Of a stretch of 35,286 nucleotides of DNA, positions 5,863-35,210 are shown in pieces; the first letter of the stretch is position 1; each line of letters starts with the position of its first letter. The translations under genes and the position numbers were made by a program. The stretch comes from Cochliopodium minus (lineage: Eukaryota > Discosea > Himatismenida > Cochliopodiidae): contig JAMYWO010000047.1 in the NCBI GenBank assembly GCA_024220525.1, forward strand, positions 166,923 through 202,208. The letters run 5' to 3'. Below the pieces are notes generated by a model. That model saw nothing but the letters and a program-made list of their open reading frames with translations, was not told where the DNA came from and searched no databases.

Positions 5863-8123
5863 TATTATTGTTTTCAGAGTCATCCTTTCTGTATTCTAAT
5901 GTAAGGTTATTAGATTCCTCCAACCATTTCTCAAATTGTCTTTTCTGAGGAATATCTTGATTAATTTCCTAAATAAATATTAATTAATTTCAAAAATAAT
6001 AACAAAATAAAAATAAAAAATTTGTTTCAAAAAAAAAAAAAGAATATCAAAAAAATTGATTGTAAAAACAAAATTTATTCGAAATAATGGAAAGTAAAAG
6101 TTAAAAAATTTAAAAAAAATTCAAAAAAAATTCAAAAAAAATTCAAAAAAAATTCAAAAAAAATTCAAAAAAATTCAAAAAAAAAATTAAAAAAAAAAAA
6201 ATTAAAAAAAGACTTACTTCGAGAGGAGAGGAAGAAGGAGGGAAGGAAACATAGGCACCAGAGAGGAAATAGTTGATAGAAGTGATGTTGGGGAGGAGGG
6301 TTTCGTCCTTCCAAACACCATAAGAGGAGAAGCTTTGAGGGAACTTAGCTACAAAGTAGAACACCACCCCTCCGAACCTGTTTGACAGTCCGCCATCGTT
6401 TCTCATCCACCCGTTCACTTCGTTGTTTTGTGGGTCAATGTTTATGTTTGCTTCTACACAAGCGTGCTCTAAAAAAAAATCAAAATCAAAATTTGCAATT
6501 AAAAAAATAAAAAAATAAAAAAAAATAAAAATAAAAAATTAAAATTAAAATTAATATATTAAAACGTAAAAATAAGAATAAAAAAAATTGAACAAAAAAA
6601 TTTAAAAAATTCAAAAAAATATAGTAAAAAAAAATATTAAAAAATAAAAAATATATAAAAATTTTAAATAAAAATGGTAAAAATAATAAAAAATAATATT
6701 AAAAAGAAAAAATCTAAAATGTCAGGAATTTTAAAAATTTTTTGAAAATAAATTCAAATGATTTTTTAGAAAATAAATTAAAATAAACAAAAAACAAAGA
6801 TTTAGAACTAACCTTGCAAAGCAGTACTGATGTTAAATGTCACAAATCTTGGCTCGCCTGCATTCCAAGTGTATCTAAGAATAAAAGATAATAATTAGAA
6901 GAATTTTTAATAAATAAATTAAAATCAATAAAATCAATAAAAACAAATAAAAATATAAAATGAATAAAAATATCCAAAAATAATTTTTTTTACCTGTGAT
7001 AAGCAGCCAATTGAGTAGATGTGAGTTCGACATTTACATTGGAGTCCAACAACATCACGTTATAGTATCCTGGCAAGGCCTTTTCTTGGGTGTGTGAAAA
7101 GGTAGATCTGAAACCATAGTCCCTCAAATCAGAATTTTTTGGGGATCTATTTGTTGGCATAACTCCTTCATTTTTTAATGTTAATAAAGGATTCAAAAAA
7201 TTTTGATCTTTAATTTGGAATTTTTTTTTTTTTTGATTATATAATTATTATTTTTATTATATAATTATAAAATTATAATTAAAATAATTATATTATGTAA
7301 AAAAAACTTTCATCCAAATTGCAGAAAATGAATTATACCTATATTTCCGAGATCTGACGCACCAGATCCTACCATATGCGTATGGGAAAATAATCTGATG
7401 TGATCATCGTTGTAGTAATACCCTCCGAAGTGGTTGAAAAAGAAGTAGACATTTTCCCAGTTCACTGTATCTGGAGATACTCTGCATAACCCAAAAGGAA
7501 CTTATTAAAAATTAAAGTAAATTTGGATAGAATGAACAAATTTAAATTTGTTTAAAACTTTATCGATTTTGAAAATAGTATCAAAGAATTGCAACTTCTT
7601 ATTTAAAATAAGAGATACTATTAAATGATCTCTTTGAAATTATCAATATTATGAATAGGCCTATTCATAATATTGATAATTTGTTTGTATAAATGATAAA
7701 GGATCATTATTAATCAATATATATGATAGATTATAAAATTTGTATCCAAATTTTATAATATTTCTTGTATCATACAGTTGAGATGTAGAAATTGATCCAA
7801 ATTAGATTATATTTCACTTTAAATCTCTTGAAAATCATCTGATATAACAGATAACTCCAAGATTTTTGAAACTGTTTTAATAATTTACAATCGTTTTTGT
7901 AAAATTTTTTACCCATTGGTCCCTTTTATCATCAAAAAATGTTTTAAAATTGAAATTTGAACCAAAAATTTTATTTGTAATTTACTGGAGGATCTCCACC
8001 TATCCCATAACCATCGCCTCCCGTTCCGATGAAGGGATTGACATATTGAGAGAAATTGGATGTTGGAATAAAACAAACACTGGTTGAAATGAAAAGAAAC
8101 AAAATTGAAATCATTTTTATCAT
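5863..8123 (-). CDS. Secreted GH92-family alpha-mannosidase, 5' half
   Basis: Exons: 8123..7986, 7922..7913 (10 nt), 7500..7339, 7165..6994, 6874..6813, 6468..6218, 5968..5863, breaking off at the N at 5862. Start is ATG 8123 (or 8114); residues 1-17 look like a signal peptide. Family marks follow in order: NPFIGTGGDGYG, the microexon-encoded GPM joining GGDPP to VPFG, FNHFGGYYYNDDHIRLFSHT, GASDLGNIGVMPT, and STFSHTQEKALPGYYNV. All match the N-terminal beta-sandwich of glycoside hydrolase family 92, exo-acting calcium-dependent alpha-mannosidases (mostly alpha-1,2). About 300 residues are present. The catalytic half is missing here, but a matching second half lies at 29567..31397. GH92 is well known in bacteria and less common in eukaryotes; the many introns show this is a nuclear gene rather than contamination. 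Confidence 0.88.
6110..6205. repeat. A-rich tandem repeat inside a GH92 intron
   Basis: Repeated ATTCAAAAAAA-type units (about 11 bp each) followed by A runs, within the intron between exons 6218 and 5968. On the minus strand the nearby donor is a perfect GTAAGT. It looks like slippage-derived sequence with no visible function. Confidence 0.7.
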
Positions 8124-8167
8124 TTTTTTCTTTGGTAAATTCAATTTTTTATTAAATATTTATTGTT

Positions 8168-8475
8168 TTATTTTTGAAAAGTATTGTAGATTTTTTTCAT
8201 TTCTTTCATTATGAATTCGAAGGAATATTTAATAGAACTGACAACAGGAGAATGGTCCACAGAATTAGGAGATTTCACAGGGGAATAAATGGAAGAGGAA
8301 GAAGGATAAGTAAAAATTAAAGAAACAACAACAATAATTGTAAGAGATAATGCAATTATTGTATGATATTTTGCAACTTGAGATTTGAGAAAATAAGGTT
8401 TTTTTTGTAGGATCTCATTCAATTTTTCTGATATGTTAAGCTTTTCTGCTTCTATCTCTTCCAATTCATCATTTT
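8168..8475 (-). CDS. C-terminal fragment of a single-pass membrane protein
   Basis: A frame that enters from the N at 8476 and ends at TAA 8168-8170. It begins with the same 25-residue Glu/Lys/Leu-rich peptide as the gene at 4664-5503 (identical DNA, 8399-8475). It then diverges into PYFLKSQVAKYH, a clear membrane helix (TIIALSLTIIVVVSLIFTY), a Ser/Pro-rich segment and a tail ending in IYNTFQK. No start is visible because the block ends here. It may be the true C-terminus of the 4664-5503 gene, a duplicate of it, or an allele. The function is unknown. It lies upstream of and in the same direction as the GH92 half, 45 bp from its ATG. Confidence 0.5.
8399..8475. repeat. 77-bp exact direct repeat, copy 2
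   Basis: Identical to 4838-4914 and stops exactly at the N. Its left edge is in an eight-T run where the two sequences diverge. A shared segment of this fixed length at a block end is what an unresolved assembly-graph overlap would leave. Confidence 0.9.
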
Positions 8476-8476
8476 N

Positions 8477-8570
8477 AATAATAAATAATAAATAATAAAT
8501 AATAAATAATAAATAATAAATAATAAATAATAAATAATAAATAATAAATAAATGAATAAATGAATAAATA
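8477..8570. repeat. AATAATA 7-bp tandem repeat at the block edge
   Basis: Near-perfect copies of a 7-bp unit (AATAATA), then AATGAATA variants toward 8570. It begins immediately after the N. Translation gives repeating IIYYLLF-like heptads that are not protein. A very similar array closes the window (35211-35286), which bears on how the blocks should be ordered. Confidence 0.85.
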
Positions 8571-8613
8571 ATAATTGAATAAATTATTTTCATAATTATT
8601 TAAAAAAATGAAC

Positions 8614-9925
8614 ATTCAGTAGTCCATTGTAAGGTAGCATTGAGACCATTGTCTAAAAGGCAGTAAACGAGATAAGAAGAATTGTGTAAAAGAGAATAAA
8701 CTAAGAATGACTTGTTTTCTTCTGCCAAATATACTATGGATACATCACTATTCATTTCTGTTTTATCTTTAAACACATACATCCTTTTTTAAAATAATTA
8801 GATTATTAATCAAAAAAAAATTTTTAAAATTAAAATAATAAATAAATAATAAATTATAAAAAATAAAAATAAAAATAAAAATAAATTAAAATAAATTATA
8901 AAAATAAAAATAAAAATAATAATGAGAAAAAAGAAAAAAAACCAAGAAATTTTCATTCTTTCCACTTCTGAATTGAACAAATCTACACCAATGACGGAAT
9001 AATAAGAAGAGGAAGCATTGTATGAAGTAAAAAAATAAACTCTCCTTCCTTGTGAAGAAGGGGAAGAAGTTATAATAAACTTTCCATTTTCCTCATTTAT
9101 TTTGTATGGAAAAGTGATTGAAGAAAATGTTTGTCCATTTCCCAAAATCTTTTCCATTTTATTATTTAAAAATTTAAGAAATAAAAATGAAAATTACACT
9201 CAAAAGCCCATCACCATCGCTCATGGATGATACAAACATTCCTAGTGATGTAAAAATAGGATTATATTTGGAACCACCTTGCACTTTCCATGCAACAGTG
9301 CCATTGCTTGAAATCAAAACAAATGTTTCTTTAATTGAAGAATTTGATGCCATGAGACCTTTTATTCCAAATTTATTCAAAATTTAAACAAACTTTTTTT
9401 TGAATCATTCTTACAATCTCCTTCACTATCCATCCATCCTATGGAGATCCTTTAAAGTTTAATTTGTTAATTTAATTTTTCTCTCTTATATTTTTCTTTT
9501 ACGTTGAATTTGTTGAAGTATATTTCCAATTTATACCTCCAGAAACTTGAAATTTCAATTTTAGATCAAAGCAATTGAATTCGTCAGAAAAAAAAATTTA
9601 CAATTATAGGAAATATATTGAGATGTAAAAGCAGATGCACAAATTACTGAATCACTATTTGAAATACATCCTAATCTAATTGAAGAATATTAATAAAATA
9701 TAGTTGGATTATTGAATTTGACCCTATTCCTGTACCAGTGATATCATTATCCCTCCATAATAATTTGGGTTTAAAATTATTGAAATTTTGTGATGTGAAT
9801 TGGAGATTAGATAGGGCGTTTGTGCATTTCCCCATATAACAGTAACAATTGCTAATTTTTATGAAGAATATACTCCAAATAAGAAAAATAAAAATATATT
9901 TCATATTTCTCTTCAATTTTTCCAT
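8614..9925 (-). CDS. Secreted PQQ/beta-propeller-like protein, 5' part
   Basis: Exons: 9925..9723, 9675..9602, 9545..9503, 9449..9415, 9358..9198, 9148..8943, 8783..8614; all introns GT..AG and in phase. The first 28 residues contain a hydrophobic stretch (IFIFLIWSIFFI) and look like a signal peptide. The rest repeats a pattern of short strands ending in a Trp motif: PKLLWRD, GGINWKYTS, NGTVAWKVQGG, RMKISWMYV, NATLQWTTE. This suggests PQQ-type beta-propeller blades of an extracellular or lumenal protein. Several NxS/T glycosylation sites are present. The frame breaks off at a probable donor after TLQWTTE; without splicing it would end CSFF and stop. The same fold and motif resume in phase at 35157..34617. 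Function is unknown. Confidence 0.62.
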
Positions 9926-10106
9926 TTTTTTTTATTCTTAATTCAACAAATGTGTTTTTGTTGTTGAATTATTAAATAATTTGGAATAGAAAATGCTTTA
10001 ATTATTTTGATATAAAATATTTGCTAAAGAAAAATTATTAACTTCTTTTTTAATTTGATTTACATTTATAAATAAAAAAAAAATTGAAGGATAAACTGTA
10101 AAATAT
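9926..10106. promoter_or_regulatory. Divergent intergenic region between the PQQ-like gene and Snu114
   Basis: 181 bp of A/T-rich DNA between two start codons facing away from each other, so it must hold both promoters. No specific element is recognisable beyond A and T runs. Confidence 0.45.
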
Positions 10107-13100
10107 ATGGAGGATCTTGATTTGTATGATGAATTTGGTAATTATCTTGGGCCAGATCTTGATAATGAAGAAATAGAAGAAAATATTCAAGAAGAAGATG
10201 AAATGGACGAGAGAGAAGATAAAATTGATTCAAAAAAAGATGATATGGATGAAAAAAGTGAAGAAGAAAATATAGGAACAATAGTATTGCATGAAGATAA
10301 AGAATATTATCCTGAAGCATCTGAAATCTATCCTGAAGCTGAAACATTGGTCCAAGATGAAGATACACAACCATTGTCACAACCAATAATTAATCCAATC
10401 AAAAAGAAAATACACAGAGAAGAAGAAAAAGAAATACCAGAAACAAATTTTAACAAACAATTTTTGACAGATTTAATGAATAATGGCAATAGTGTTAGAA
10501 ATATATCGTTAATAGGAAATCTTCACCATGGAAAAACTTCTTTCTTGGATATTTTTGTAAAGAAAACACATCCCGAAAAATCAAAAATAAATAGTGAGAA
10601 ACTCCTTAAATACACAAATACTAGGAAAGATGAAATACAAAGAGGTCTCACCATCAAAAGCAAACCTATTTCTCTCGTATTACAGAATTTAAATGGCAAA
10701 TCTTTTTTATTGAACATCATGGACACTCCTGGCCACGTTAATTTTTCTGATGAAGTAACTGCCGCATTAAGAATAAGTGATGGAGTAGTATTGGTAGTGG
10801 ATGTGATTGAAGGAGTTTTAAATCACACCAAAAATTTGATTTTCCATGCCCTCTCTCAAAATCTCCCCATCACACTTTTCATCAATAAATTAGATCGTTT
10901 GGTTTTGGAAAGCAGATTCCCTCCTAAAGATGCTTACTTCAAAATTAAAGAGATAATAGATATTGTTAATTCTCATATCCTTCAATTTTCTCAATCCAAT
11001 CCTTCCTCCACATTTTCTGCTCCTCTCTTGTCTCCTCGTAAAGGAAATGTTCTTTTTGGAAGTTCCTTATTTGGCTTTTGCTTTTCTCTTCTTTCTTTCG
11101 CAAAAATTTATAACAAAAAAAATGGCGGGGAAATCAACGAAAAGATGTTTGCAGAAAGATTATGGGGTGATATCTATTATAATGCTTTGGATAGAAATTT
11201 CAAAGGAAAGCCTTCCTCTGGTGCCTCTCAAAGAACATTTGTTTCTTTCATTTTGGAGCCTCTTTACAAAATCTTTTCTTTCACTGTTTCTGAGAAGAGT
11301 GAAAATTTGAAGGATGTTCTCTCTCAATTGGGTGTTTATTTAAAACCTACCCACTATGAAATGAACAACATCCCTCTTCTTCGTCTCATCATTTCCAAAT
11401 TTCTCGGAGATTCTAACAACTCTTTTGTGGATGCAATTTCCCAACATATTCCCTCTCCACTAGTTTCTCCTCCCAACAAATTACCCCTCATTTTTCCCAC
11501 CTCTTCTTCTTATCTTTCCTCTAACAAAGAAAGCAATAATTCCAAAGATAAAAAGCAAGATCCTGAACAATTGGCTGTTGAATCTATGCTCAAAAATGAT
11601 AAAGATGGACCCCTCATCATCAACATTGTCAAAAACTATGAATCTCAAGATGGTTCTACTTTTGAATCTCTTGGAAGGATTTTCAGTGGCACCATTCGTA
11701 AAGGTGATCGTTTGAGAGTTTTGGGCGAAGGCTATTCAGTAATAATTTTTAAATTTTTTGATCATATCTTGACAAATACAATCTAAATATACTATATTAA
11801 TCTTATAATCTTAAAATACGATCCTTATGATATACAATATAATCTCTTAGAATACGTTAACTAAATACTCTTTTATTTTTATTCAAAAAAATACTCACAA
11901 AAAAAAAAAGTTTTTTAATTAAACCTTCTTTTGAAATAAATAGATTTTGGAAGAGGAAGACGTTACAGTGAGAGAAGTGACAAGTTTGGCTATATTTCAA
12001 AGCAGATACAACATAGAAATGGAGGAAGTGGGAAGTGGAAACTGGGTGTTGATAGGGGGAGTGTCTGATTGCATTTCAAAAACGGCAACATTGATGTGGG
12101 AAAACATGAAAGGAATAAACATCTTCACTCCTCTTTCTTTCATGACGATAGGGGTGTGCAAAGTGGCAGTGGAGCCCCTCAACCCCTCTGAACTTCCCAA
12201 AATGTTGGATGGATTAAGAAAGTTGGACAAATCGTATCCTCTTTTACACACCAAAGTGGAGGAGAGTGGAGAACATGTGTTGGTGGGAACAGGAGAGTTA
12301 TACTTGGACTGTGTTCTTTACGACATCCGTAATTTGTTTACCGAAATAGAAATAAAGGTGAGCGATCCTGTAGTTTCTTTTTGCGAAACAGTGGTGGACA
12401 CCTCTACCGTCAAATGTTTTGCTCACACTCCCAATCAGGGAAACAAACTCACTTTTATCTGTGAACCTCTTGAAAAAGAAATGGCATTGGACATTGAAAA
12501 CGACAAAATACCCCTCTACTCTCTTTCCAAAGAAAACCTTTCTTCTCTTCTCAGAGAAAAATACGAGTGGGATATCCTCGCTTCCAAATCTTTGTGGGCT
12601 TTCGGTCCCAGTCCCAAAAATGGACCAAATATTCTCTTGGATGATACTCTCCCCTCTGAAGTCGACAAAAACAAACTTTCTTCTTGCAGGGATTCCATAG
12701 TACAAGGTTTTCAATGGTCAACAAGAGAAGGTCCTCTTTGTGAAGAGCCGATCCGTTCCGTCAAATTTAAAATATTGGATGCTACCTTAGCAGATGAACC
12801 CTTTAAAAGAGGAGCAGGTCAAATCATCCCAACCTCAAGAAGAGTGTGTTATTCCTCTTTTCTTACTGCTACTCCTCGTCTGATGGAACCTGTTTTCTTT
12901 GTTGAAATTTTGGCTCCTGAAGAGTGTGTGGCTGCCACCTTTACCATCTTGGCAAGAAGAAGAGGAAATGTACTCTCTGAAACTTTGAAACCAGGTACTC
13001 CCTTTACTCTTATTCAAGCTCATTTGCCTGTCATGGATTCTTATGGTTTTGAAACTGATTTGAGATGTCACACTCAAGGAATGGCTTTTTGTACTACTGT

Positions 13101-13305
13101 TTTTGATCATTGGCAGAATGTTCCAGGAGATCCTCTCGATAAAAATGTATTATTAAAACCTTTGCAACCTTCTCAAACTCAAGATCTTGCAAGAGAATTT
13201 GTTGTAAAAACCAGAAGAAGAAAGGGTCTTTCTGATGACGTTGCGATTTCTCACTTTTTTGATGAAAAAATGATTTTGAATACACAAAATCTATTTAATT
13301 TTTAA
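10107..13305 (+). CDS. snu114: Snu114/EFTUD2, U5 snRNP GTPase
   Basis: Two exons, 10107..11738 and 11944..13305 (TAA), 997 residues; human EFTUD2 is 972. The 205-bp intron has GT..AG ends, is phase 0 and carries stops in the unspliced frame. The N-terminus [18 protein letters not shown] is the diagnostic start of the family, followed by a long acidic region. GTPase motifs: G1 GNLHHGKT (137-144), switch Thr in RGLT (179-182), DTPGH (206-210), NKLD (260-263). The second exon gives EF-2-like domains with [16 protein letters not shown]-like and [16 protein letters not shown] blocks and the [17 protein letters not shown] ending. In the U5 snRNP, Snu114 works with Prp8 and Brr2 in spliceosome activation and disassembly. 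An insertion rich in Ser/Asn (about residues 455-490) separates GTPase domain and domain 2. Converges on CWC22. Confidence 0.96.
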
Positions 13306-13405
13306 TAATATTTCCCATTAAACTTATTTAAATAATAATTTTTTTTTTGACTTTTTCCGATTTCAAATAATTTTTTTTTGATTGAAAAAGGTATTGAAAA
13401 TTTTT

Positions 13406-15377
13406 TTATTTCTTTTGTTTCTTCTTTTTTTTTTCAGATGAGGAAGAATCAGAAGAAGAATCAGAAGAAGAAGAGGAATCAGAAGAAGAGGAATCAGAAG
13501 AAGAGGAATCATCAGAGGAATCAGAGGAATCAGAAGAAGAGGAAGAATCTTCTTGTTTGGTTACACGAGGTAAGGTTTTTAGAGCCTCCCTCATGCCCTC
13601 TGTCAAAGCACCTAAACCAATCGAAGTAAAAAAATTGATGGCAAAGCGGGTGCTTGTAGCATGGTTCATAGGCAATAATCCAGAGATATGAGGTTCGATG
13701 AGAGGATCTTTAAATCTTTTGCACAAAAGATTAATACCCAAATATTCTGCCATTTCTTGAAAAAGGATTTTGATGAAAATTCTTGAAGAAGAGGTGGTCT
13801 CCCTTTCGTTCAAATGGATGAATTCTAAAGCAGACCAAGGAAGAGAATCAGTGTAAAAAAGATGAGCAAACAATTTGGCAACATTTCTAAGTTTGTTGGT
13901 TTCGAGTTGATGGATGTTTTCGTACCAATCAGAGAAAAGTTTTTTGTAAATGAATTGATATTCTTTTCTCAAATCACAAAACTTTTGAGCAAGCAAGGCG
14001 TAGTATCTCAAAAAACCCCTTTCTTGTGAACAACATTCAACAATCATGTTTGCGAGAACTTCTTCGTGTCCCTCTATCTTTAAATTCAACAGTTTGTGAG
14101 CACATTCATCATCACTGACAGAAGACATGATGGTGATGTAAATTTGTCTCCTCAAGTTAATCATTTCTGTTTCTGTTTTGTCTTTTATCACTTGTGTTTC
14201 TGTCTTTTTCTCATCTTTTGAATCTGAACTATCATCTGAACTATCAGAGCTGTCTGAACTGTCATCCGAGCTATCTGAACTATCAGAACTATCTTCTCCT
14301 TTTTATTAAAAAAATTTAATTGATTTTTTTTCAGAGAGATATTTAAAAAAAAAATTTCAAACCCAAAATTTTGTTTTTGAGAGAATTCCATTTTTGATTG
14401 GATTGTTTGAAATTTGGATCAAAAGAGAAGAGATCAAGATCATTCTGAGGATCATAAGAGTTGGAAAGGGAAAGATGTTGATGGGTGATTTTATCATCTT
14501 CTTCTACGAGATCCAACTGAGGGATTACAATTGGAAAATCTTTGAATTTGGATTTTCTGATTGAAAATAATTGTTCGATGAAATACTGAGTTCTTTTATC
14601 TATTTCTCCTTCTTGTAATATATGTCTAAATGCATCAAATACATCATTGAATGGTTTAGGATTGATTTCAGAAAGATATAGACCACATTCTCTCACGAAA
14701 TGAAAGGATATCTCGATACTTTCTTTTGTTGGCTTATCTAACAAGAGTGCAAGTATTTGGAGACCTATCAATTCTGATGCTACCTGTTGATTGATGAGAT
14801 GGGAAATAAATAAAACACATGTGATGGAACTATCTTTGTTATTTCTTTTAAATTCGATTTGAAAAGTGTTTATCAATCTTGTCAACAACAATTCTCCTAT
14901 TTCTGGCACTTTTGAATTTATCACACAAATTAATGATGCATAAAGTGAACTAAATTTTGGAGATGCTTTTTGACAATTAAGAATAGATTTCACCAATATC
15001 CCTTTTCCTCTGTATAAATTTTCTCTAAAGAATTCAGGTATCAGATTTGCTGTTTAAAGAAAGGATAAATTTGAAAAATGAAATTTATATCTATTTGTAC
15101 CTATATTGGTTGTATTTAATTTATTTAATAGTCCATTAATTGTTTTTTTGAGTGCTTCCCAACTTAATTTTTGATAATTTTCGCTCTCTCTATCTCTTTC
15201 TTCAGATATTAATTTTGCTAATTTAAAAGGAGGAATATAGATGTTGTTATCTATTTTCTTTTTTTCAATGACATTCTTTAGTTTTGATAATTCTTGTTCA
15301 TTTGTTGTTGGCTCCTTTTTTTCTGGAGAATTTTTTGTTGATTTCCTTTTATTATCAGAATCTCTCTCTTTTGACAT
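13406..15377 (-). CDS. cwc22: CWC22, spliceosome-associated MIF4G/MA3 protein
   Basis: Three exons: 15377..15101, 15049..14363, 14298..13406 (TAA), 618 residues. Introns are 51 and 64 bp and both split Gly/Ala codons in phase 1. The N-terminus is charged, then IYIPPFKLAKL and SWEALKKTINGLLNKLNTTNI start the MIF4G domain (about 50-270), which includes EIGELLLTRLI, CVLFISHLINQQVA and LQEGEIDKR. Exon 3 starts with a Ser/Asp tract and then the MA3 domain (INLRRQIYITIMSSV, CCSQERGFLRYY, ETNKLRNVAKLFAHL, TTSSSRIFIKILFQEMAEYL). The last 55 residues are a Ser/Asp run with a Lys tail. CWC22 is needed for spliceosome activation and, in animals, delivers eIF4A3 for exon-junction-complex assembly. Its 3' end is 100 bp from the Snu114 stop, tail to tail. 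Confidence 0.95.
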
Positions 15378-15510
15378 TGAAGAAGTTTCTTAGATCAAAA
15401 TCTTTCAATTTTTTTTTATATTTTTCAGAAAAATAGCTAAATATTCGTTAGATATAAATAATTGTGGAAAGCAAGTTGAGATGGATAATGAATTTTAAAA
15501 ACGAATTTAA

Positions 15511-18500
15511 TCAAAAATTAGTTGTTCTCATTTCTAATACAAAATTTTTCATTTCTGAATTGGAAGAATAAAAATATAACAATCTCTGAACAAAAATTTG
15601 TTCTTTAGGTTGATTTGCTAACATCAAATGAGGATCAGAATTTTCGCATCTCAAAAAAGAAGGAACAAAAACAAGAGCCAAATTGGTTACACTCATCAAC
15701 GTAACTTCCGCAAATTTTTCCTGTCCCAATTCCGAAATGAATTCTAATAAATAAGATGCTACCTCTCTATGTGAGGGAGGGAGATCTTTAAATATTTGGA
15801 AATACAAATTGAAATTATTTTGATCATCTGCAGCTTGAATACAAGCTTTCAAAAATAAAAAAAGAATTTAAATAAAAAAAAATTAAAAAAAAATTATCTT
15901 TACTTTCATAATCTGGAAATAAAGGGACAGGAAGTTTTCTGAGCCAAGATTTGAGGAGGGAGGCATAAATATGAGGATCCTTGGTTTTGAGGGAATAGAT
16001 ACCATAGTATTTGGACTTTATGATGCTTTCTATGTGCGTGGAGAGCTCTTTTGTTGCAACTGACAAACGAAAAATTCCTATTTGAAAAAAAAAAATAATT
16101 TATAAAAATAATAATAAAAAAAAAGGTTTACCTTGTGTCTTGAAAACTTCGAATCTATACAACTCTTCAACCAAAAAATTTATAAAACAAGGAATAAACA
16201 AGTTTGGGTAAACAGAAATTTGGTACTCCATGATTTCTTCGAGTGAGGCAGTAAAAATGTTGATGTTCTTCACAATAAAAAAGAAAAAATTAAATCAACA
16301 AAAGTTTTAGGAAAAAAAAAAAATTACTCTTTTCTTTTTGGTTTTTGCGAATTTTCTTGGGGTGGTGCCAGAACTGGAAGGACTGGTAGAACCAGAGTTG
16401 ACTACCAAGTTTGCATTTTTTGGCTCGAAAGTGTAAAGCAAATTTTCATTTTTGAAATTGTGTTCGTCGAGGATATGTCTAAAGTAAATAAAAAAAAAAA
16501 ATTTGAAAAATAAAAAATATTTTTAAATAAATATGTAAATAAAAACAAAACTTTAGAAATAAAAACAAATATATTTTTTAATTTTTTTTTTTTACCTCAA
16601 AACATTTCCAATGATCAAAGACTGGCCAATGAAAATGGACTCGTTGGTAGATTTGGAGATACCAACTTTAATCATCCAGGTGATAAACTCAGAACCAAGA
16701 AGGATGTTTTTGTAAGTGTTGTGTTTGTATTTTTTGGTTTTTATGATGGATTCGACGCCCAACTCAAAAAGCTTTTTTTTCAAAGTTAATGCCCTTTCAT
16801 CTACTTTGTTGTCCGTCCCTCCACTGTTATTCCTAAAAAAATGATAAAATGAAATGTATTTCAAAAAAAAAAAAAAAATTAAGAAAAAATGAAAAAAATT
16901 ATGAAAAATAAAATTTATAAAATTTTTTTTTAATAATAATGAAAAAATGAAAGTATACATTCTGTTTCCGACTTCTTGTTTGACTTGCGCGCTCTGAGAG
17001 ATGAAGATTTCACGGGGAGTCTGTTTGTAATCATTTCCATTATTTCCCTTTAAATTTGGCACATTCAACTTTTTGAGACTGGAGATGTGAAGATTGGGTG
17101 TGTTGTTCTTTTCCACTTTGTTATCTTTTTTTAAAAAAATTTGTGATTTTAAAGTTTAACTAAAAAAAGTCATTTTATTTTTTTAATTAATTTTTTTTTA
17201 TTTTTTTTTTTTTTTATTCATACTTTTTGTTTTAAATTTTTATAATTTAGTTTTTATCATTATTTATTTTTACTTTATTTTTTACATTTTATATTATTAT
17301 TATTCACATTTTTTTTTTTTAAAAATTATATTTTATATTTTCTATTATTATATTAATATTTTTTTATTAAGAAAAATTTTACTTTTGAGAGGGGAAGAAG
17401 TGAGGAGAGGATCATACATGCCGACATGGTTTTCAGGGTTGGATTGTTGAAAGATGGAGGAAGTGGTGTGTCGAAGAGAAGTGGTAGGAGGAGAGTAGGA
17501 GGAGATGGTGAGGGGTGTTCTTGAAGGTGGGGATGATGGATTTGGTGGAGATTGTGATCTTAATACTGGCGAATGTGTCATGTGTACGGTGGAGTGGCCT
17601 TTTATATTTTTACAAAAATCAAATTATTTTTTAATGTTTAATATGTCAAAAAAAAAAATTAAAATAAATTAAAATTAGTAAAACTAAAATAAATTAAAAA
17701 TAAATAGTAAACACTTTAAATTAAAAATGTAAAATATGAAATAAATTTAAAATATGAAATAAATTTAAAAAAAAAGACTAATGAATAAATATCAAACACT
17801 TGAAATAAATAAAAAAAAGAATTTTATCAATCAAGATGTTTTGGAATAAAAAGAACATTTTTTTGTTACCAAAATTAGGATGGTTGAGATTGCTGGAAGA
17901 ATGAGAAATGGAAAAGGAGCGCAAGGGAGAAGTACTGCTGCGAGGAGGGGAAGTAGTGCCTCCATGTACACTACTACTGTTATTACTGTTATTATTACTA
18001 TTGTTATTATTATTATTACTATTGGATAAGTCACCACTTTGATTGTCACGAGAAGAAGAGTTGGGAACATAGATGGGGGAAGAAGGAAGCTTGACAGTTT
18101 GCGACAAGTAAAGAGTGGAGGACTTTTTGCGGATATTATCAGAGGAGGGATTGTTTGAGGAGGAGGAGGAGGTTGTTGCTGTTGTGGGGGATCCTGATAT
18201 CTTCTCATCGCTTTTCACTCTGAAGAGGGATAAATCAAATTGAGATTTGCTTAGATTGAATCTTTGGAGTTTGGTTTGTTGGCTTGTGGGGGAGGAGATG
18301 TTCGTTTTCAAAGAGTCGATTTCCTTGACGGAGGAGGATTTTCTGAAATTGGAGATTCTTTCACTGGGAGAGGAGGGTTCTTTTGTATTAGATACAGAAA
18401 CAACTTCTTCTTCTTCATCATCCTCTATTTCTTCCTCATCTTGATTGATGCTATCGCCTTTCTCTTTTTCTTGGCTATCGTCTATTTCCCCATTCTTTAT

Positions 18501-20030: not shown

Positions 20031-22452
20031 ATGTTAAAAGAATTCGAAAGTAATGCACAATTTGAGGGAACAGTCGCATGGAGTGATCATAAAGCCGCAA
20101 CCGATTTGAATAGAAGTGTTAATTCAATTATTAATAAATCAGCAACTATATTTCATGCAAAGCTCGATTATCATCCATCCGAGTTGATTAATGATTGCAA
20201 GGAATTGCATTATCTTTGCAATAATTTCATAAAGGATTCACCCTATGAAGATTCAATCCCCAAATACGAGTTTAAAAATTTTTTTAAATTCTTTTATTTT
20301 TAAAGTTATTTAATCTTTTTAATTTATCACAGGGGGTATATGAGAGACATGCTCGAGAATATCGATATACTCGAGAACACAATAAATAATTATCAACCAA
20401 ATCGAAAATGGACCAATTCTCAAATCCAATATATTGCCTCTTCCATGAAAGTAATTCTTGGATCACTTGTAAAAAGAAACGATAATTTTTCTTATTTAAT
20501 AATTTATATTTTTTTTTATAATACTGAATAATCCCCAAAATTTTATTTAGCAAGAGATGATGGATGTTGCCGAAATTGATCAAACCAAGCAAACATTGCA
20601 TCATATGAAATTTTGTGTTGAGTATCAAAATAAACTATGGAATGATACACCAAATCCACAATCATGCACTGTCCAAAATTTCCAAATTAGGAGCAATAAC
20701 TTTATAGATTTCCACGATTTTTGGCTTTTATTGGTGGAAAATAGATTGGAAGTGACCAAAGATCAACATCAAACCGAACAATTGAAAGAAATTTTGGAAT
20801 ATATCAAACCAAATATAGAGTTTATCAAAGATGTTTGTATAAGAATCCGCCAAAATCACAATAATATCTATCTCTTACATCAAAATGTAATTGTTTCTTT
20901 TTTAATTTTATACAAATTAATTTGACAAATTTTTTTTTTTTTGAAGAATCAACAACATTTTGTGGATTTAAGAGAAGGAACAAAAAGATTCATTCTTTTC
21001 ATCAAGGAAAATGATTTAAAGGCAAGATCGAACTATGATTATAAAGGAATAGAACCTGCAAAATTCCATTCCACTTTAGATGAATTGGTACATGCTATAG
21101 GTAGGGGAGAACAATCCTCAGTCCTGAATATGGCAAAAGATCTTACAGGACAAGTTAACGGGATTAATGATCAGATTCTTATGGAAGCCCAAAATGAATT
21201 AAAAGAACAAACAAAAGATTTGATTGCCACAGCAAAACAAAATTTGCAAGAATCAGAATCTCTCGAGGCAAAAAATAGATTGAATGAAATTGTCAATTCA
21301 ATGAAAAAACAAATTTCTGACATGGCCAATTTGCAAGAAGCTCAACTCAGACAAAGAGATCAATTAGTTCGTAATGCCACTGGTGTTGGAATGGCAATGC
21401 AAAACATGAACAAGATTCTCAGTATAACAACAGGAAACATTAAAGAAGATAAGAGTATTGATGATAACACTATTAATGATCTTGAAAATACAAGATTGGA
21501 GAATATCGGTAAAAAAGATAACAATGATCTCGATGATTTGGATAGAGAACTTGATGAACTCGATAACATGGGATCTTCCAACTTTAAACAACCTGTTAAA
21601 CAACCTCTCAAACAACCTGTTAAACAGCCTCTCAAACAACCATTTAAGCAACCCAACAAACAACCATTCAAACAACCCAACAAGCTACCCAACAAGCAAC
21701 CATTTAAACAACCCGTAAAACAAACACCTCCCCCAAGTGATGATCTCGATGATTTGGATAGAGAACTTGATGAGCTTGATAACATTGGTGGATCGAGCTT
21801 TAAACCCGTTAAACAACCTGTCAAACAACCTGTTAAGCAACCATTCAAGCAACCATCCAAACAACCATTCAAACAACCCAACAAGCAACCATTTAAACAA
21901 GTCGTCAAACAAACACCCCCACCAAAAGATGATTTCGATGATTTGGAATCTGAATTGAATGATCTTGATAACTTGGGTGGTTCTCAGTTCTCTTCCCAAC
22001 GTGGTTCTGAATTCTCATCCTCACGCACCCAGTCTTCCCAAAGAGATGAACTCGAAGATTTGGAATCCGAACTTAGTTCCCTCGAAAGTACTAGTTACAG
22101 ACAATCCAATACTTCAAGTTATAGACAATCCAACAATAACGAAATGGATGAATTAGATTTGCAATTGTCTCAATTGGATAAACCAAGAGTTAGCACCAAC
22201 AATAACAGCAGATCCACTTCATCCAACAATTCATCCAAGAAAAATGAATGGAGTATTGGTTTAGATCTCAAATCTAATGATGATATGTTCTCTGAATTGG
22301 ATGATCTTGATAAAGAAATTGGAGATTACAGTTTTGATCTCGATATGCAAAGTCCTCCTCCTCAAAACAAAAAATCATCAAATGATACTTCACAATTTGA
22401 TAGCTTTGACCAAGATGATGAGTTGGATGATCTTTTGAAAGAATTGAATTAA
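20031..22452 (+). CDS. Helical protein with KQP repeats and seven LD-like motifs
   Basis: Four exons: 20031..20269, 20333..20468, 20551..20886, 20947..22452 (TAA), 738 residues, junctions in phase. Residues 1 to about 420 are almost entirely amphipathic helix (for example HPSELINDCKELHYLCNNF, LVRNATGVGMAMQNMNKIL), resembling vinculin/talin-type helical bundles; I cannot assign a family firmly. The C-terminal 310 residues alternate KQP-x-x runs (nt about 21585-21720 and 21805-21915) with short acidic LD-like motifs: LDDLDREL (21529 and 21745), FDDLESEL (21934), LEDLESEL (22051), MDELDLQL (22144), LDDLDKEI (22297) and LDDLLKEL (22423), which ends the protein. The last fits the paxillin LD consensus LDxLLxxL exactly. 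A scaffold role in adhesion or the cytoskeleton is an inference. Confidence 0.75.
21585..21925 (+). repeat. Coding repeat: KQPx units around an LD-like motif
   Basis: Two arrays of a 12-15 bp unit encoding K-Q-P-V/L/F/N (about 21588-21720 and 21805-21915) flank a copy of the LDDLDRELDELDN segment and the TPPP linker. The blocks TPPPSDDLDDLDREL and TPPPKDDFDDLESEL show that a longer module of roughly 195 bp was duplicated and then diverged. The antisense frames of this array are open only because of the repeat. Confidence 0.8.
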
Positions 22453-22550
22453 AGGGAAAGTTTCATTTAATTAAAATTTTTGGATATTATTTGAATATAT
22501 ATATTGTTTTTTGAAACATCCCCTTTCCAAATTATCAAAAAAAAAAAAAA

Positions 22551-23993
22551 ATGAAAAGAGTAGAAACAGTTGAATTGGACAAAGTAAAAATGTATTATTA
22601 TGTTTTGAACATTTATAATGATTTTTAATACAAAGGTATGCATATCTGTGAAAGATGAATGGTTGGTATGGAATCATGTGGAAAAAGGAATTAAAGAAAG
22701 AATGCCATTAAAATCAATCGAATGGAACAATCCAATTATTTCTATGGTCAATATTATCAACTCTATCAATCCAATCTTTATCCCCCAAGATCATGCCTTT
22801 TTGAATTATCCAAATTTTCCCATCAATTGGTTTAAAAAACCATATCTCTTCATTTATTTCGTTCATTGTGATGATACAGGTACCTATAAAAAAGAGGTAA
22901 GAGATAAAATCAAGGAATGGGTCAAGGATAATCAAGTAAAAGAGAATCAATGGCTCATAGTCTATGTCACTACCAATAAAAAAAAGAACAATTTCAGCTT
23001 GTTGAATTCAATTTATGATAAGATAAAAAGTGAATTTAATTTGGTTAAGACAAACAATTTTGATAGGTAAAACAAATTATTTCCAAAACAATGTTTAATA
23101 TTTGTTGATTATATGAAATAATGAGAAATATTTTGATATTCTATTGCTCATTCAATATTTTCAAATTTGCAATAGAGTATGTCAAATAACAATACAACAA
23201 GAAACAGAGACAAATGAAGAATGGGAAATATTTATAAATATAATGAAAAAATCGATCTCTCAATGTCTATCAAAACAAACAGCAGATTATTATGAAAAAA
23301 TAAAAGAATATGAAAAGCAAGTGACCAATCCTGGGTTCAATTTTTGCCATTTTTTTCTATTGAAAGAGGGATTGGCCTTCACATTGCAAAGAGCAGGGTT
23401 GATATTGGATTCATTGTTGAGATATCAAGAATTGGAGACGTTATTGGAATCTCTCCACGAAAAAAAATCAATCAAATTGTTCGAATCTTTTCTTGAAGAG
23501 AATATCTTATCTGTGAAGAACAAAGATTCTTTTTCTGTTGTGATTTATCCCTCCCTCTCAAATCTCTTGAAGAAAAAGCCAAATCTAAGAGAGGAAATGT
23601 ACAAGAACACCATCTCTGAATTCTCAATGAAATGCTATCTCTTTTCGAGACAATCAGACCTCATCTTCTCTTTAAAGCAACCCAACAAGGTAGCAGTGAT
23701 GTCCATTGCTTTCATCAGACAGATGTACAAGGAATTGAAAAGAGTAAAAAGCTCCTCTGAGATGTTTTTCTGCGAAAGATGGGCATACCAAGCTTACATT
23801 GATATCATCAACGATTGTGATTTTTACTACAACAATCTCTTGCAGGACAATCAACCAGGTGAGCAGAATTTTGATATTTATATCAAGGGTATGTCCGATC
23901 TTTTGGGTGATTCCTTTTCTCCTACTCATCATCACCTCTTAATTGCTCATCTCCATTACCTTTCCAGAAAAATGGTAATTAATTTCTTTCATT

Positions 23994-24024
<31 letters not shown>

Positions 24025-27000
24025 TTCATTTATTTATTTATATCCATTATTTTTATTTATTTATTTATTATTTTTTACTATGTTTCATTTATTTTATCTA
24101 TATTTATATTTATTTTATTTTTATTTATTTTATTTGTATTTATTTTTAACTCTTTTTTTTTTGGTCATATTTGTAATAAGATATATATTTGTTATTATGA
24201 TTCACATACAAATCTAAAGTTTATTTTTGTTAAAGCTTGACAAAATAGGAGTTGCTATGGGATATCTTCCAAGTTTTGATAAACAAATTCTTCTTCCACC
24301 TTATGAAAACAAAAAAGAAGAGATGAAAGAAATAGACTTGAAAGAGAAAAATAAAGAAGTAAACAACACAAACACAAACACAATTATAAACTCTAACAAA
24401 TTGGAAAGAACATCCAGCACGATGAGAAGAATGACAAACAGCTCAGAAATGTCAAAACCTCATTCAACAGATTCTCAAACACTAGAGTTAGTAGAGCTGA
24501 CAACTAACGATCCATTGGCGTACGGAGAACTAACACAAAAACAGTTTGATCAGCTTTACATCGAAGCAACTACCAACGCTGCCATCCGATTCAAGTTTGC
24601 AGAAAACATGAGAAACAACGAGAAAATGACGGTGGACATTGCTCTCATTGATTATTTTAGAAAAGATTACAAACAAACTTCTTCTTCTATCGATGTCCTC
24701 TGCAGGAAATATCTTTCTACTGGTTGGAAACAAGTGGGTTATTCTCTTTTGTACAAGTTGGCACATTCCCAGTATGTGATAGAAGATTGGCCTAATTACC
24801 TCATCAGTTGTTTGTTGTTTGTCTCCAAAGAAAGTTTTGGATACACTCAGCACCAATCTTATTTTCTCGAACAGTTCCTAAATGTTTCTCAAAATAAATT
24901 GCAACAACCTTTGGTTCTTCCTAAACTCATTGAAATCATCACTCCTTCTCAGTTTTACTGTTTTAATTACACTGCTGACCCCAATTTTTGTGGGTTGATT
25001 CCCAAATTAAAGTTTCTTGCACCTCCTCCCATCGAGTCTGCCCTCGAGAAAAAAAAGAAAAAGAAACTCCCTCCTCCCTCCAAAAACGAAGAAGAAGAAA
25101 AACTCCAAAAAATGAAAGAAAATGCCCAAAGAAATCAAAACGGGAGGTTGTTGTTGGAGATAGGTGACAAATTGGTTGTAAGATACAAACTCAAGGGCCA
25201 TTTGTTGGAAGAGATCAAGTTTGAAAAAGTGATCATAAAGTGGAGCAAACAGTTTTTGAGACAAGAACCCGTCTCCCCCAATAAAAAAGGAAGCACCCTT
25301 TCTTTAAACACCACTTCTCTTTTAAGAGACCAAGATCTTTCTTCCAATTCTTCTTCCAATTCTTCTACTGCCTCTATTTCTACCAACACGCCCGTTTCTC
25401 ATCTCCCTCATCTTTCTCATCTCTCTGTTGTGGATAACACTTCTCATTCTGTCACTTCTCCTCGTGGAAAAGAAGAATTTAAAAGGACTCATCAACCCAA
25501 AAAGTCTTTAATCTCTTTTCTCGGCCGTCAAGATAAAGACAAAGATTCTCAAAGTGTTGATCACACCAACGATTCCAACAACTCTGTCAACACAGAAAAA
25601 AATGAAAAGAGCAAATTCAGAACGCATGAAAGAAAAAAAACGGGAACTTCTTCCATCAAATACGACAAAATTGAAAAAGATGAAACCTCTTCCCTTGTCT
25701 CTGACATTCAATTGGGAGTCTACAAAGATGAAATGCAAACAGATGAGAGTGAAACATTCGAGATGGTTGTGGAGGACTTTGTTTTGAAATCAAATGAAGA
25801 AAGCGAAATTGAATTTTCCAAAATAGTGGATGTAAGTGGAGACTTTATTTGTAACAGCATCTCTTTTAACATCGGAAACCTTTCTCTCACTCAATCTCTC
25901 ATGAATTACAACTACAACTCCATAGGGAGCCAAAACAACTTGAACAGAAAATTGATAAGAATAATCCCCACCATTCCTACCGCTTCTCTTTCCATCCAAT
26001 CTTTTCCTATTTATCTCAATCCTTTTGTCGATCATCCTTCCCAATCTTCCCTTTATGCTCCTTCTTATTTCAAATCTAACAATCCTGCTCAATCCATCCG
26101 TTTTTCCATCCATACCAACCAGGATGATCATATTGTCGGGGCTCAATCTTACGTGGTCTTCTTTTTCAAACACGAATGGATAAATCTCGTCAATCAATCT
26201 GATCTCCCTCTTTATTTGTACTCCCCTAAAAAATCTACAGAAAAAGGAGGAGAGGAAGAAGGTGATTTGGTAGCAACATTAACAGGAGCTCAAATAAGAG
26301 AAAACAAACTACTTTTGCCAGATACAACCACTTTTTACAGAAATCACAAACTGGTGGTTTATTTACCCATCTCTTTTTCTGATCCAGAACAAGTCAATCA
26401 TCAATTAAAAATAAACAACAAGCCTCTCCCTATTGATTTTTCAGTATCCTTCAGATATCTCAAATTAAATTCAAGATTCAACGTGGATAGTAATTTCAGC
26501 ATAACTCTCACCCATCCTTTTTCTGTGAATGTTGAACCCATTTCCCAAAACAAAGAAAATTCATTGTTTTTGCAAGTATCTGTTCAATCTCTCTCTTCTC
26601 TTCCTATCCTCTTTCTTTCTCACAGCATCACTTTACCTAACACTTCTATTTCTTTGCTTCAAGACTACAATTCCTCCTTTTTGAACAATTCTCTTCTGTC
26701 TCCCAACGAAAAGATCTCTCTTTCTTTCCTCGTTTCTTCCCAGATGAATCTCCAACAATACGATTATGATCTCTACTTTCAATTATTTTTGAATTATCAA
26801 TTCATAGATCCTACCCAATCCTCTCTTTATCACATTCATTCCCTGTAAACAAATTTTCTTTTTTTCAATTTTTTTTTTACATTTTTTATATTTTTAGAAA
26901 AGAAGAAAACATTCTCAAAGAAGATAACTCTACCAAACTTTTTGAAGAAGATTTGAACATAGAAGAAAAGCTGAACTATTGGATGCTCACACAAGAACAC

Positions 27001-28025
27001 TCTCAAAATAACAATCACATCTCCCTTTCGTCCTCCACAGATCTGAGCCAAATAGGAAACAGTAACACCCTTTTGGGTGGAAGTGGGAACAACAACTTGA
27101 TTTCTCCTCCTCCTTTGAGAAATCCTCAATTTTCAAGTTCCAATCCTTCCAGCCGCTCTCCCACTCTTACTCGTTCCCTAACTTCCCGTCCTCAACAAAA
27201 CCATTTTTCTCCTCCTCTTACTCGTTCTCAACAACAACAACATCACCCTTCTCTCCATAACCAACAACTCCACAACAATTCCATTTTCTCTTCTTCTCCC
27301 TCCCTCCAATCTCTTTTACATTCTTCTGACAAACATAAACAACTCACTAACAGTAACAACAATAACAATAACAATGATAAAAATTCTCACCAAAACGAAA
27401 ATAAAGAAGAGAAGTGCACGCTTTTTGTAAAAACTTTTCAAAATTTTGTAGATATTGAAAAAATAAAAGTTTCTTTCGACAATGAAAAAGAAAAAACTCT
27501 CATTCAAACAACTTGGGACAACAAGTTTTCTTATAAAGGATTGATTCCTCTTCCTATTGGAGGAAAGGTAAAAAAAAAAAAAACATTTTGTATTTAAATT
27601 GAACCTTTACATATTTATCAAACCTTTTCTAGAAAAAAAAATTTGATGTGATTTTGGATTTTAACAAGCAAATGAACTTGGGAGAATTGAACGAGTTGGA
27701 GGTTGTTGTGAAACTTCTCCCTCAAAACAGTTCTAGCAAAGAAACATTCATTGAATACTACGAAGATATTTCTTCCACTGTAAACTTGCAAGTAGATACA
27801 AACAGTTGGTTGGTTGTTGGGTACCAAGATTCTACTTTTGTATTATCAGTTTCTCAGCCAAAAAAGATAAAGTATAAATTGCTTCCCTTATTTTGTGGTC
27901 AACTCTCTTTGCCCACCTTTAAAGTTGTTGAGAATAATGATTCTTACATTTTCTCTTCTTCTATTTTTCCAAAGGTCACCGTAATCCCCAAGGCAACTTT
28001 CATTACTTCAACTGTAATTCATTAA
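22551..28025 (+). CDS. trappc10: TRAPPC10/Trs130-like TRAPPII subunit
   Basis: Six exons: 22551..22583, 22636..23066, 23176..23974, 24236..26844, 26898..27567, 27633..28025 (TAA), 1644 residues; human TRAPPC10 is 1259, the excess being low-complexity inserts. The start MKRVETVELDK in a short first exon joins in phase to VCISVKDEWLVWN; an ATG inside intron 1 (22618) is the alternative. N-terminal family features: PYLFIYFVHCDDTGTYKKEV, WLIVYVTTNKKK, NPGFNFCHFFLLKEGLAFT, and MKCYLFSRQSDLIF. Residues about 445-490 and 775-880 are Ser/Asn/Glu-rich. The C-terminal region ends with a beta-rich part containing SWLVVGYQDSTFVLS and KYKLLPLFCGQLSLP, as in TRAPPC10. TRAPPII activates Rab11/Ypt31 at the late Golgi and in cytokinesis. 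Intron 3 is full of ATTT repeats. Confidence 0.92.
23990..24165. repeat. ATTT/TTTA tandem repeat in TRAPPC10 intron 3
   Basis: A run of TTTA units with interruptions inside the intron 23975..24235. It stays open in the exon 3 frame for about 80 codons and so looks like coding, but it reads as Phe/Ile/Leu/Tyr only and is removed by GT..AG splicing that rejoins SRKM to LDKIGVAMG. Confidence 0.85.
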
Positions 28026-28261
28026 TAAAATGAATAAATTTTTTTTTTTGATAATCTCTTATCTTGTTAATCCTTAAAAATTCATTTGCCTTTCAAATTT
28101 AGCCATTATTTGATGTAAATTTCATATATAGTATGAAATTTTAAATCTGATGAAACATTTTTTTTCATTCTTCTTGTACATATTTTTTAAGAGCGACTTT
28201 GATATATTTTTTTTTCCCTTTCAAAATATTATAAAAAAATAAAAAAAAAAGAGGTTTATTC
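28026..28261. promoter_or_regulatory. Intergenic region upstream of GAPDH
   Basis: 236 bp between the TRAPPC10 stop and the GAPDH ATG, same direction. It holds T runs (28040, 28208) and an A run just before the ATG. It presumably contains the GAPDH promoter; no specific box could be assigned. Confidence 0.4.
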
Positions 28262-29506
<1,245 letters not shown>

Positions 29507-29566
29507 ATTTTATTAAACTTAGGATTTAAGCAAAAAACTAAGAATTTTATCCCAAATTTAATATAT

Positions 29567-31397
29567 TTAATGATTGACAAAATTGGTTTGGTTGGAAGTC
29601 ATATAAAAAACTATTTTCCCTCCATTTGCAATTTGAGAATGGTCAAAGGTTGGGATTTTCCAAAGAACATCATTGATGTAGACTTTTTCAACAAAAAAAT
29701 TTTGTTTCGAAAGGTTCACAGCTGAAATTTGAATGTTGCCTTCTTTTCTGTTAATAGTCATCTCTGGGAATAATGGATTTCCAAGAACATACCTTTTAAA
29801 TTCAATAAAAAAAAAGAATTAAATTTATTTAAATATTCTTTTTTTTTTACGTGGTGGTTGCGGCCAGTGGGTAAAATCCGAGAGCAGACCAAACATACCA
29901 AGCGCTCATTGTACCATAGTCATCATTACCTGGTAATCCATTGGGTGTTATCAAGTATTTGGTCTCTCTAAGCATGTTCACTGTTTCATTTGTTAAAATT
30001 TTTATTAAATATTTATTTTTAATTTACCATATTTTTGTGTCAAGTCAGGTCTCCCCGCCAATCCGAATAACCAAGGAGCAAACAAGTCTTCTTCGTTACC
30101 CGCCCAATAAAATGGGTTTGGAAGAATCTAAAATAATTAATTAAAATGATTTTTAAAGTTTTGATTTACATTCACTGTATCTAAATTGGATAATTCCAAA
30201 AACAAAGTTAATTCATTGATTAATTCTTCTTGGGAACCGAACAATTTTATCAAATCATCAAGATGCCAATATCCTTTAAATTTTTTTGAATTTTTGATTT
30301 TTTTAGATTTTTTTTTTTTTGGTTACCATGGTATCTATAGTGGTTAGCATCTCCTTCCACATATCTGCTATCAAAAACATCAGTCTTAAGGAGAGGACAA
30401 TCTTTTTAAATTAAATTAATTCTAATAAAATGAAATTTTTTTTTATTTTTTACCAAAAGTTCCATTTCTTCTTCTTGGACAGAAGTATTTTTCAACAGGG
30501 GACCACTAATAAAAAATTTCAATAAACTTTTTTAAATTTTATAATTTAATTTTATTATAATTTAATTAAATAATTTTATAATTTAATTAAATAATTTTAA
30601 ATTAAATATTTATTTTTAAACTAATTTTTTAATTTATAATTTTACAGTGTTGATAAAGTTTTTGGAACGGTTATAAAACAATTGTTGATCACCAGAATAA
30701 TTCAACGCTGCGGCCATTTGTGACACTGCAAAATCGTCATAGGAGTACGCCAATGTCAAACAAGCAGCTATAAAAAATAATCAAATTAATTTTAAAATGA
30801 AAAATATAAAAGAAATAAATGACAAAAATTAAATCAAAAAATGAAATTAAATTAAAAAAAAAAATTGTTAATGATTTTCTAAGAAATAAAAAAAAAATTA
30901 TAAATAAAATTTTTGAAATTCTTTTTTTACCAATGTCTGTTTCTTCATACACAACATATCCTTTGGTTATCCAGTCACTAAGATCCTCTTTTTTTTTAAT
31001 TTGATTGTTCAAAATATCAAATTAAAAAAAAAAGAAAAAAAAAATTCGAAAAAATAATAAATAATTTAAAATAATTGAATAATGTGGTTTTTACGTCTTG
31101 AACAATGATTTTGGACTTTTGTAGAACTTTGGTACATTCCTTTAAAACAATTAATTATTATTTTAGTATTTTTTTTCTTTATTTATTATTTTTTTTTATT
31201 TATATTTTTATTATTTTATTTTATTTTATTTTATTTTTATTATTTTTATTTTATTATTTTTTTACCTTGGTACGCTCTTTGTGCGTCGAAACCCCTCACA
31301 CCTTTGATATAGGAGTCCGCGATGATGATGTTGGCGTGTTGGCCTATCATGCAGCAAGTATATCCATTAGCCAATGGCCATCTCGGTATCGATCCTC
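29567..31397 (-). CDS. GH92-family alpha-mannosidase, catalytic 3' half
   Basis: Ten exons: 31397..31266, 31139..31095, 30987..30931, 30767..30646, 30505..30454, 30401..30327, 30273..30170, 30127..30028, 29980..29851, 29792..29567 (TAA); about 347 residues, in phase throughout. It enters from an intron that ends in the N at 31558. Family blocks: SIPRWPLANGYTCCMIGQHA, LTLAYSYDDFAVSQMA, NTWSPVEKYFCPRR, YVEGDANHYRYH, NPFYWAGNEEDLFAPWLF and GLPGNDDYGTMSAWYVWSAL. The Glu of the EGD motif and the Asp pair in GNDDYG correspond to the proposed catalytic acid and base of GH92. The C-terminal beta-sandwich follows. Together with the 5' half at 5863..8123, and about 100 missing residues, it would make a normal GH92 enzyme of about 750 residues, so both are probably one gene. 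Confidence 0.9.
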
Positions 31398-31479
31398 CTA
31401 AATAAAAAAAACAAATAAAATAAAAAAATAAATAAATAAAATCAATAACATTAACAAGAAAAATTAATGAAGATTAAAA

Positions 31480-31557
31480 AGAATAAAATAAAAAATAAAA
31501 AATAAAAAATAAAAAATAAAAAATAAAAAATAAAAAATAAAAAATAAAAAATAAAAA
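31480..31557. repeat. AAAAAAT 7-bp tandem repeat at the block edge
   Basis: About nine copies of a 7-bp AAAAAAT unit inside the broken GH92 intron, ending at the N at 31558. Read on the minus strand it gives FLFFIFY heptads, not protein. Such an array is a natural place for short-read assembly to stop. Confidence 0.9.
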
Positions 31558-31560
31558 NCG

Positions 31561-31638: not shown

Positions 31639-31710
31639 AAAGAAATAAGACATGCAATCATAGTTCAATTAATTAATAAACATATTTTTAATGTTTTTGA
31701 AAAGAATAAA

Positions 31711-35157: not shown

Positions 35158-35210
35158 CTTTAATTATAATTAAAATAATAAAAAATAAATTAACTTTTTA
35201 AAAAGTTTAA

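Follow-up and report, generated by a model that had tools for sequence, protein, structure and literature searches.

How does a gene of the GH92 family come to lie in the genome assembly of Cochliopodium minus with its 3′ half upstream of its 5′ half? The window, by which is meant the whole stretch of DNA analysed here, is 35,286 bases long with a G+C content of 28.9%, and forms the terminal stretch, 166923-202208, of scaffold C47 (contig JAMYWO010000047.1, 202,208 bases) of assembly GCA_024220525.1, which was searched in its entirety (44,654,751 bases, 598 scaffolds). It contains single Ns at 5862, 8476 and 31558 and no other N, and the blocks between them are named C1 (1-5861), C2 (5863-8475), C3 (8477-31557) and C4 (31559-35286), the right end of C4 being the end of the scaffold. 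The answer reached is that one gene has very probably been torn apart by a reversed order of blocks in the assembly, an error and not biology. The features from which the argument starts are these:

5863..8123, minus strand: GH92 5′ half, seven exons (8123-7986, 7922-7913, 7500-7339, 7207-6994, 6874-6813, 6468-6218 and 5968-5863)
29567..31397, minus strand: GH92 3′ catalytic half, ten exons (the first is 31397-31266), 346 residues and then TAA
31398..31557, minus strand: part of a GH92 intron, in which a (TTTTTAT)n-type run abuts the N at 31558
5862: single N between C1 and C2, a join judged wrong, with a GH92 half on one side and a dispersed repeat on the other
31558: single N between C3 and C4, a join judged wrong, with the GH92 intron on one side and a fragment like a long interspersed nuclear element (LINE) on the other

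Exon borders throughout both halves are our own models and were placed by eye. All 15 introns inside the halves are of the GT..AG type, and the last exon of the 5′ half, 5968-5863, is cut by the N at 5862 after 314 codons without a stop, in keeping with the 300 or so residues at which an earlier note on this DNA had it break off. That note also placed the start of the catalytic half within an intron that runs up to the N at 31558, and 31398-31557 is indeed intron, followed on the minus strand by the ten exons. PF17678 is matched by the 5′ half alone (positions 1-224 of 236, E 3.9e-49) and PF07971 by the 3′ half alone (positions 120-463 of 464, E 6.9e-92), both above cut-off, and the halves are thus complementary, lying on the same strand without overlap in the family just as had been proposed. 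In the alignment to 2wvx_A the 5′ half reaches chain residue 230 with its own residue 285 of 314 and the 3′ half takes over at 362, and therefore about 100 residues of the middle are missing, which is the number that the note had expected on joining the halves. Protein Data Bank (PDB) matches include 6f8z for the 5′ half (E 1.1e-23) and 7zgm_A for the 3′ half (E 2.4e-52). The last exon of the 5′ half is backed by its splice sites, its open frame and about 10 residues of PDB alignment, the PF17678 match ending at residue 274. The acidic motifs GNE.. and GNDD.., which we take to be catalytic in GH92, are both present and are aligned with 7zgm and 6f8z. A micro-exon of 10 bases (7922-7913), flanked by AG and GT, is predicted in the gene and restores the conserved DP.G..VPFG stretch; glutamine is encoded in the two halves by 23 CAA and 2 CAG codons.

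At these E-values chance resemblance is ruled out for both halves. Profile searches of the whole genome gave five matches to PF07971 and three to PF17678, and because all eight fall within the two halves these are taken for one gene in two pieces; neither a second GH92 gene, a finding that would have told against the earlier note, nor another copy of either lacking half was found by the same searches. The fit of the halves to each other and the absence of another copy would accordingly make them parts of a single gene, an ordinary intron-rich member of its family, and the split does not belong to the genome itself. As assembled, no uninterrupted frame runs through both GH92 domains, about 100 residues being missing and the order permuted, which is ascribed to the assembly. 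On the minus strand the fit requires C3 to lie to the left of C2, the reverse of the order given, and the ends of the blocks provide evidence of their own on what lies next to what:

8399..8475: right end of C2, whose last 77 bases equal 4838-4914, a maximal exact match reaching the final base of C2
4838..4914: copy in C1 of the last 77 bases of C2, read as the stretch with which a contig named C1b (4838-5861) truly starts on the left
4837..4838: putative misjoin within a run of T, with no N to mark it, the match to C2 beginning exactly at 4838
8477..8560: left end of C3, a minisatellite inside an intron-like stretch of a minus-strand gene, with a 31-base word at 8529
35210..35286: where C4 and the scaffold end on the right, the same minisatellite, with the 31-base word at 35210 and 35239
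8600..9925, minus strand: 5′ part of a gene whose N-terminus, near 9925, is signal-like and which stops at the left end of C3 (by eye, no Pfam match)
34617..35170, minus strand: 3′ part, probably of that gene, by the right end of C4 (by eye, no Pfam match above cut-off)
8476: single N between C2 and C3, a join judged wrong, with the minisatellite of the scaffold end on its C3 side and the match to C1 on its C2 side

Contigs that are neighbours overlap by K in most de Bruijn assemblers, and SPAdes has been used with k of 21, 33, 55 and 77, according to PMC7379835. An exact end overlap of 77 bases is the kind of trace expected of two graph neighbours, and SPAdes may have been the maker of this assembly. 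Since the exact overlap is of the size of K, 4838 is read as the left end of C1b, which would follow C2, and 4837/4838 as a probable false join made without an N. A genome search with 8168-8475 gave the C2 and C1 places and no third place for the tail of C2.

At the other end of the window, the 31-base word of the minisatellite occurs three times (8529, 35210 and 35239) in the searchable letters of the 44.65-Mb genome, and the same word read backwards, as a control, does not occur at all. The C4 exon beside the minisatellite reads ..GSGTFYALDIRSGKVIATV.. on the minus strand and coding goes on to a stop near 34617; by eye, the gene parts in C3 and C4 both resemble PQQ-type repeats. The right end of C4 most likely continues, to judge from these letters, into the left end of C3, the shared repeat being the firm part of the argument and the shared gene the soft part.

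With C4 leading to C3 by the minisatellite, C3 to C2 by GH92 and C2 to C1b by the 77 bases, the true order would therefore be C4-C3-C2-C1b, which is the given order backwards with each block on its given strand. The earlier note had put the block 8477-31557 to the left of 5863-8475 and blamed scaffolding; that swap of C3 and C2 is supported, both by the lack of a second GH92 gene in the genome searches and by a like permutation on another scaffold. Its extent was set too small, as C4 apparently lies to the left of C3 and C1 is seemingly misjoined at 4837/4838. A circle of C2 and C3 was also considered, with GH92 tying the right of C3 to the left of C2 and a gene seeming to run from the left of C3 into the right of C2, and was dropped because the minisatellite ties the left of C3 to C4 and the 77-base overlap ties the right of C2 to C1. 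Paralogue queries left the order undecided: the exons at the left of C3 taken with the C2 tail, in the given order, returned five matches, four from the window itself and one weak (C305, E 0.16), and the C1 gene as given returned three, every one of them on C47, of which two were the gene itself and one was the C2 copy.

The second scaffold is C101, on which a search with TIGR01652 places profile positions 741-871 at 100397-99665 and 834-930 at 119570-119277, two pieces of an ATP9-type flippase, both on the minus strand. The 3′ piece is thus about 19 kb to the right of the 5′ piece, the wrong side for the minus strand, and beyond its intron is a single N at C101:119661. On joining the pieces the reading passes from ..IYNGWLLVG to YSTYYTMAPVFSLVLDEDL.., and the joined pieces (query 2-184) align with residues 720-903 of 9vdk_A (E 4.6e-80), where the alignment is ungapped at the join and has one gap of a single residue at another place, and with residues 849-1032 of 7rd6_A. 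The intron of the 5′ piece runs into (AAAAAAT)n at about 99560-99625 and comes out in other sequence without an N, and the block carrying the 3′ piece ends in the same kind of (AAAAAAT)n run. Read from the letters, the sense of the permutation on C101 is that of GH92 and the two kinds of bad join, at a single N and by a merge without one, are the same. Neighbours fit in reverse order with strand kept at the three joins proposed for the window, the GH92 one being gapped, and at one on C101, and the breaks coincide with gaps or repeat merges, at 5862 and 31558 for GH92 and at the N at 119661 and the (AAAAAAT)n run for the flippase. Another flippase exon on C101 (100774-100645, L052) differs from the last exon of the C201 flippase (34280-34409, L056) at 1 of 130 bases before the two part in an AT-rich run; contigs that are allelic or duplicated may here add to the disorder, and a merge without an N is likely on C201.

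What lies at the two block ends that find no partner in this order bears on how else the blocks could be arranged:

5564..5861: right end of C1, one copy of a short dispersed repeat that is found at 8 further genome places
31560..31660, plus strand: left end of C4, a LINE-like repeat fragment with 8 other genome places

Such repeats are natural stopping points for contigs. The C1-end repeat is 75-93% identical to longer copies (L010-L015), several of which start at one common internal point, and the relatives of the C4-end repeat (L020-L026) have by eye endonuclease- or reverse-transcriptase-like coding, that of L020 being reverse-transcriptase-like. The thought that one transposon bridges C1 and C4 was dropped as less probable: no locus outside the window matches both ends (1.6-3.3 kb were fetched per locus), and pairwise comparison of five of these loci with the others gives two distinct groups. 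A further repeat, in tandem, is present at 21524-21994 of the window within a KQP-rich coding frame (Pfam PT disordered repeat, E 1.2e-7).

Were C1 to be split at 4837/4838 and C4 left rightmost, the order C1a-C3-C2-C1b-C4 would make use of the 77-base overlap as well as of the GH92 join, and would set C1b and C4, both ending in repeats, on opposite sides of a repeat gap. However, the repeats at the right of C1 and the left of C4 are of different families, with no fetched locus outside the window in common, and C4 is tied at its right end by the minisatellite to where C3 begins, so that this order is very unlikely. Slightly less likely again is that C2 and C3 alone are swapped, giving C1-C3-C2-C4 with the remaining scaffold right. 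This accounts for GH92 with the fewest changes, yet leaves unexplained the 31-base word common to the left end of C3 and the end of the scaffold, makes the exact 77-base overlap of C2 and C1 a coincidence or a duplication, and sets the right end of C2 against the LINE fragment. A real permutation, with 3′ halves upstream of 5′ halves and order restored by DNA rearrangement or trans-splicing, could draw on the same sense recurring in two genes that are unrelated and lie on different scaffolds, but it is scarcely credible when the breaks are at the kinds of place where an assembly fails (single Ns, repeats and AT minisatellites), when about 100 residues are lacking at the GH92 break and when the right end of C3 and the left end of C2 share no word of at least 14 bases; nor is there an in-frame TAA, TAG or TGA in the 660 sense codons of the halves, and so no sign of ciliate-like stop reassignment. 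Two separate GH92 genes or pseudogenes, each truncated in place, are equally hard to credit even though each half stands alone as given, for the halves are open with good splice sites and complementary, no other copy of the lacking halves was found in the genome and both breaks are at Ns.

The reversed block order, being the reading preferred, has also to be set against a survey of other genes and joins. TIGR01652 gave 48 matches (43 of 60 candidates scored), TIGR01517 14 (9 of 74) and TIGR00957 10 (6 of 91), and PF00063, the myosin profile, gave 76 matches at 18 loci, 15 of them colinear over most of the model and three (C84, C79 and C496) partial. Among five flippase loci, those on C240 and C70 are colinear past position 870, those on C93 and C201 are colinear but end at 774 and 739, and that on C101 is permuted. 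No N occurs inside the flippase stretches of C70 and C201, the C201 gene stopping at 739 all the same, and on C93 there is one just after the gene piece. On the plus strand of C114 the TIGR00957 piece for positions 1380-1518 (21026-21496) is 32 kb to the left of the pieces for 492-756 (53295-54194), and these parts of an MRP-type transporter may, from their positions, be permuted in the sense of GH92 or may be paralogues.

The joins themselves were followed at six single Ns (C47 100216, 172784, 175398 and 198480, C101 119661 and C93 32827), at none of which is a gene shown to run on as given, keeping in mind that the sample is biased, five of the six having been reached via the window's own finding or via cut genes. 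The N at C47:100216 cuts a minus-strand ABC-transporter gene after its Walker A exon, and the next exon, present in three C47 paralogues, was not found in the 731 readable bases to the left of that N. At C93:32827 the flippase stops at profile position 774 and an unrelated open frame starts to the right of the N. Single Ns are also present at five further loci, on C56, C97, C121, C303 and C45, outside this sample.

Several observations weigh against a reversed order or its particulars. The middle of the GH92 gene was not found in the assembly by a six-frame, exon-by-exon search, which short exons could escape, and the GH92 join itself is unseen. The gene spanning C4 and C3 was recognized only by eye, with nothing in Pfam for its C3 part and one match below cut-off (E 0.064) for its C4 part. 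The 77-base match could be a recent duplication, and no evidence links C1b to the remaining C1. The frame of the minus-strand C1 gene is open through the 77 bases into C2, where a hydrophobic stretch precedes a stop at 8168, and C1 as given is also open past 4837/4838, for 57 codons until a stop; as it is open either way, with two different C-termini, the frame alone is without power to decide the join. The two pieces on C101 have overlapping profile ranges (834-871), though the joined letters align without overlap and the profile overlap is therefore not one of sequence. None of the 18 myosin loci in the PF00063 genome search is permuted, nor is any TIGR01517 ATPase match among the candidates scored, and the fault is shown on two scaffolds only. 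Colinearity at the loci surveyed is, for its part, expected of genes inside one contig, and most of these loci are so placed and have no bearing on how far the fault extends.

As to how such an order could arise, there is about an even chance that the scaffolder was given, or deduced, the wrong orientation of read pairs. Outward-pointing pairs taken as inward, or the converse, would keep relative strand and swap order; the negative distance then estimated would make swapped neighbours seem to overlap, which could account for the single Ns, and AT-rich introns could supply chance overlaps, by which contigs would be merged without an N. Related tools insert one N where no overlap is found. PMC4014442 counts paired-end contamination, with its wrong orientation of pairs, among the complications of assembly.

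If the fault runs through the assembly, as its occurrence on two scaffolds suggests, synteny, gene models that cross an N, and claims of gene loss and of gene clusters would all be unreliable beyond single contigs. Joins made without an N, such as those at 4837/4838 and in the (AAAAAAT)n run of C101, would escape users who trust only N-free sequence. The value of the finding is for data quality and not for biology, and it should be possible to mend the fault with the original reads.

Among known systems, the GH92 alpha-mannosidases of 7zgm, 6f8z and 2wvx have both of the Pfam domains that are present here in two pieces, and the gene here differs from them in being intron-rich and eukaryotic and in the 100 or so residues missing from the assembly. 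The joined C101 pieces align with phospholipid-transporting ATPases of the ATP9A/Neo1 type (9vdk and 7rd6), while on the scaffold they are permuted and about 19 kb apart. Scrambled germline genes are found in ciliates, among which stop reassignment is common, and pointers, which are short repeats, are shared by the broken ends of such genes. Permuted pieces on one strand are common to those genes and to the present ones, but the breaks here are at Ns and repeats and there are no reassigned stops. No pointer-like word of at least 14 bases was found within 200 bases at each of the GH92 broken ends, nor any of 5-14 bases common to the final 60 bases of one end and the initial 60 of the other, the true ends being missing from the assembly. 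In arrangement there is a likeness to relocation misassembly by a scaffolder with wrong or mixed pair orientation, as from paired-end contamination of mate-pair libraries; we infer the cause in the present case, and what the two have in common is the kept strands, the wrong order and the breaks at gaps and repeats.

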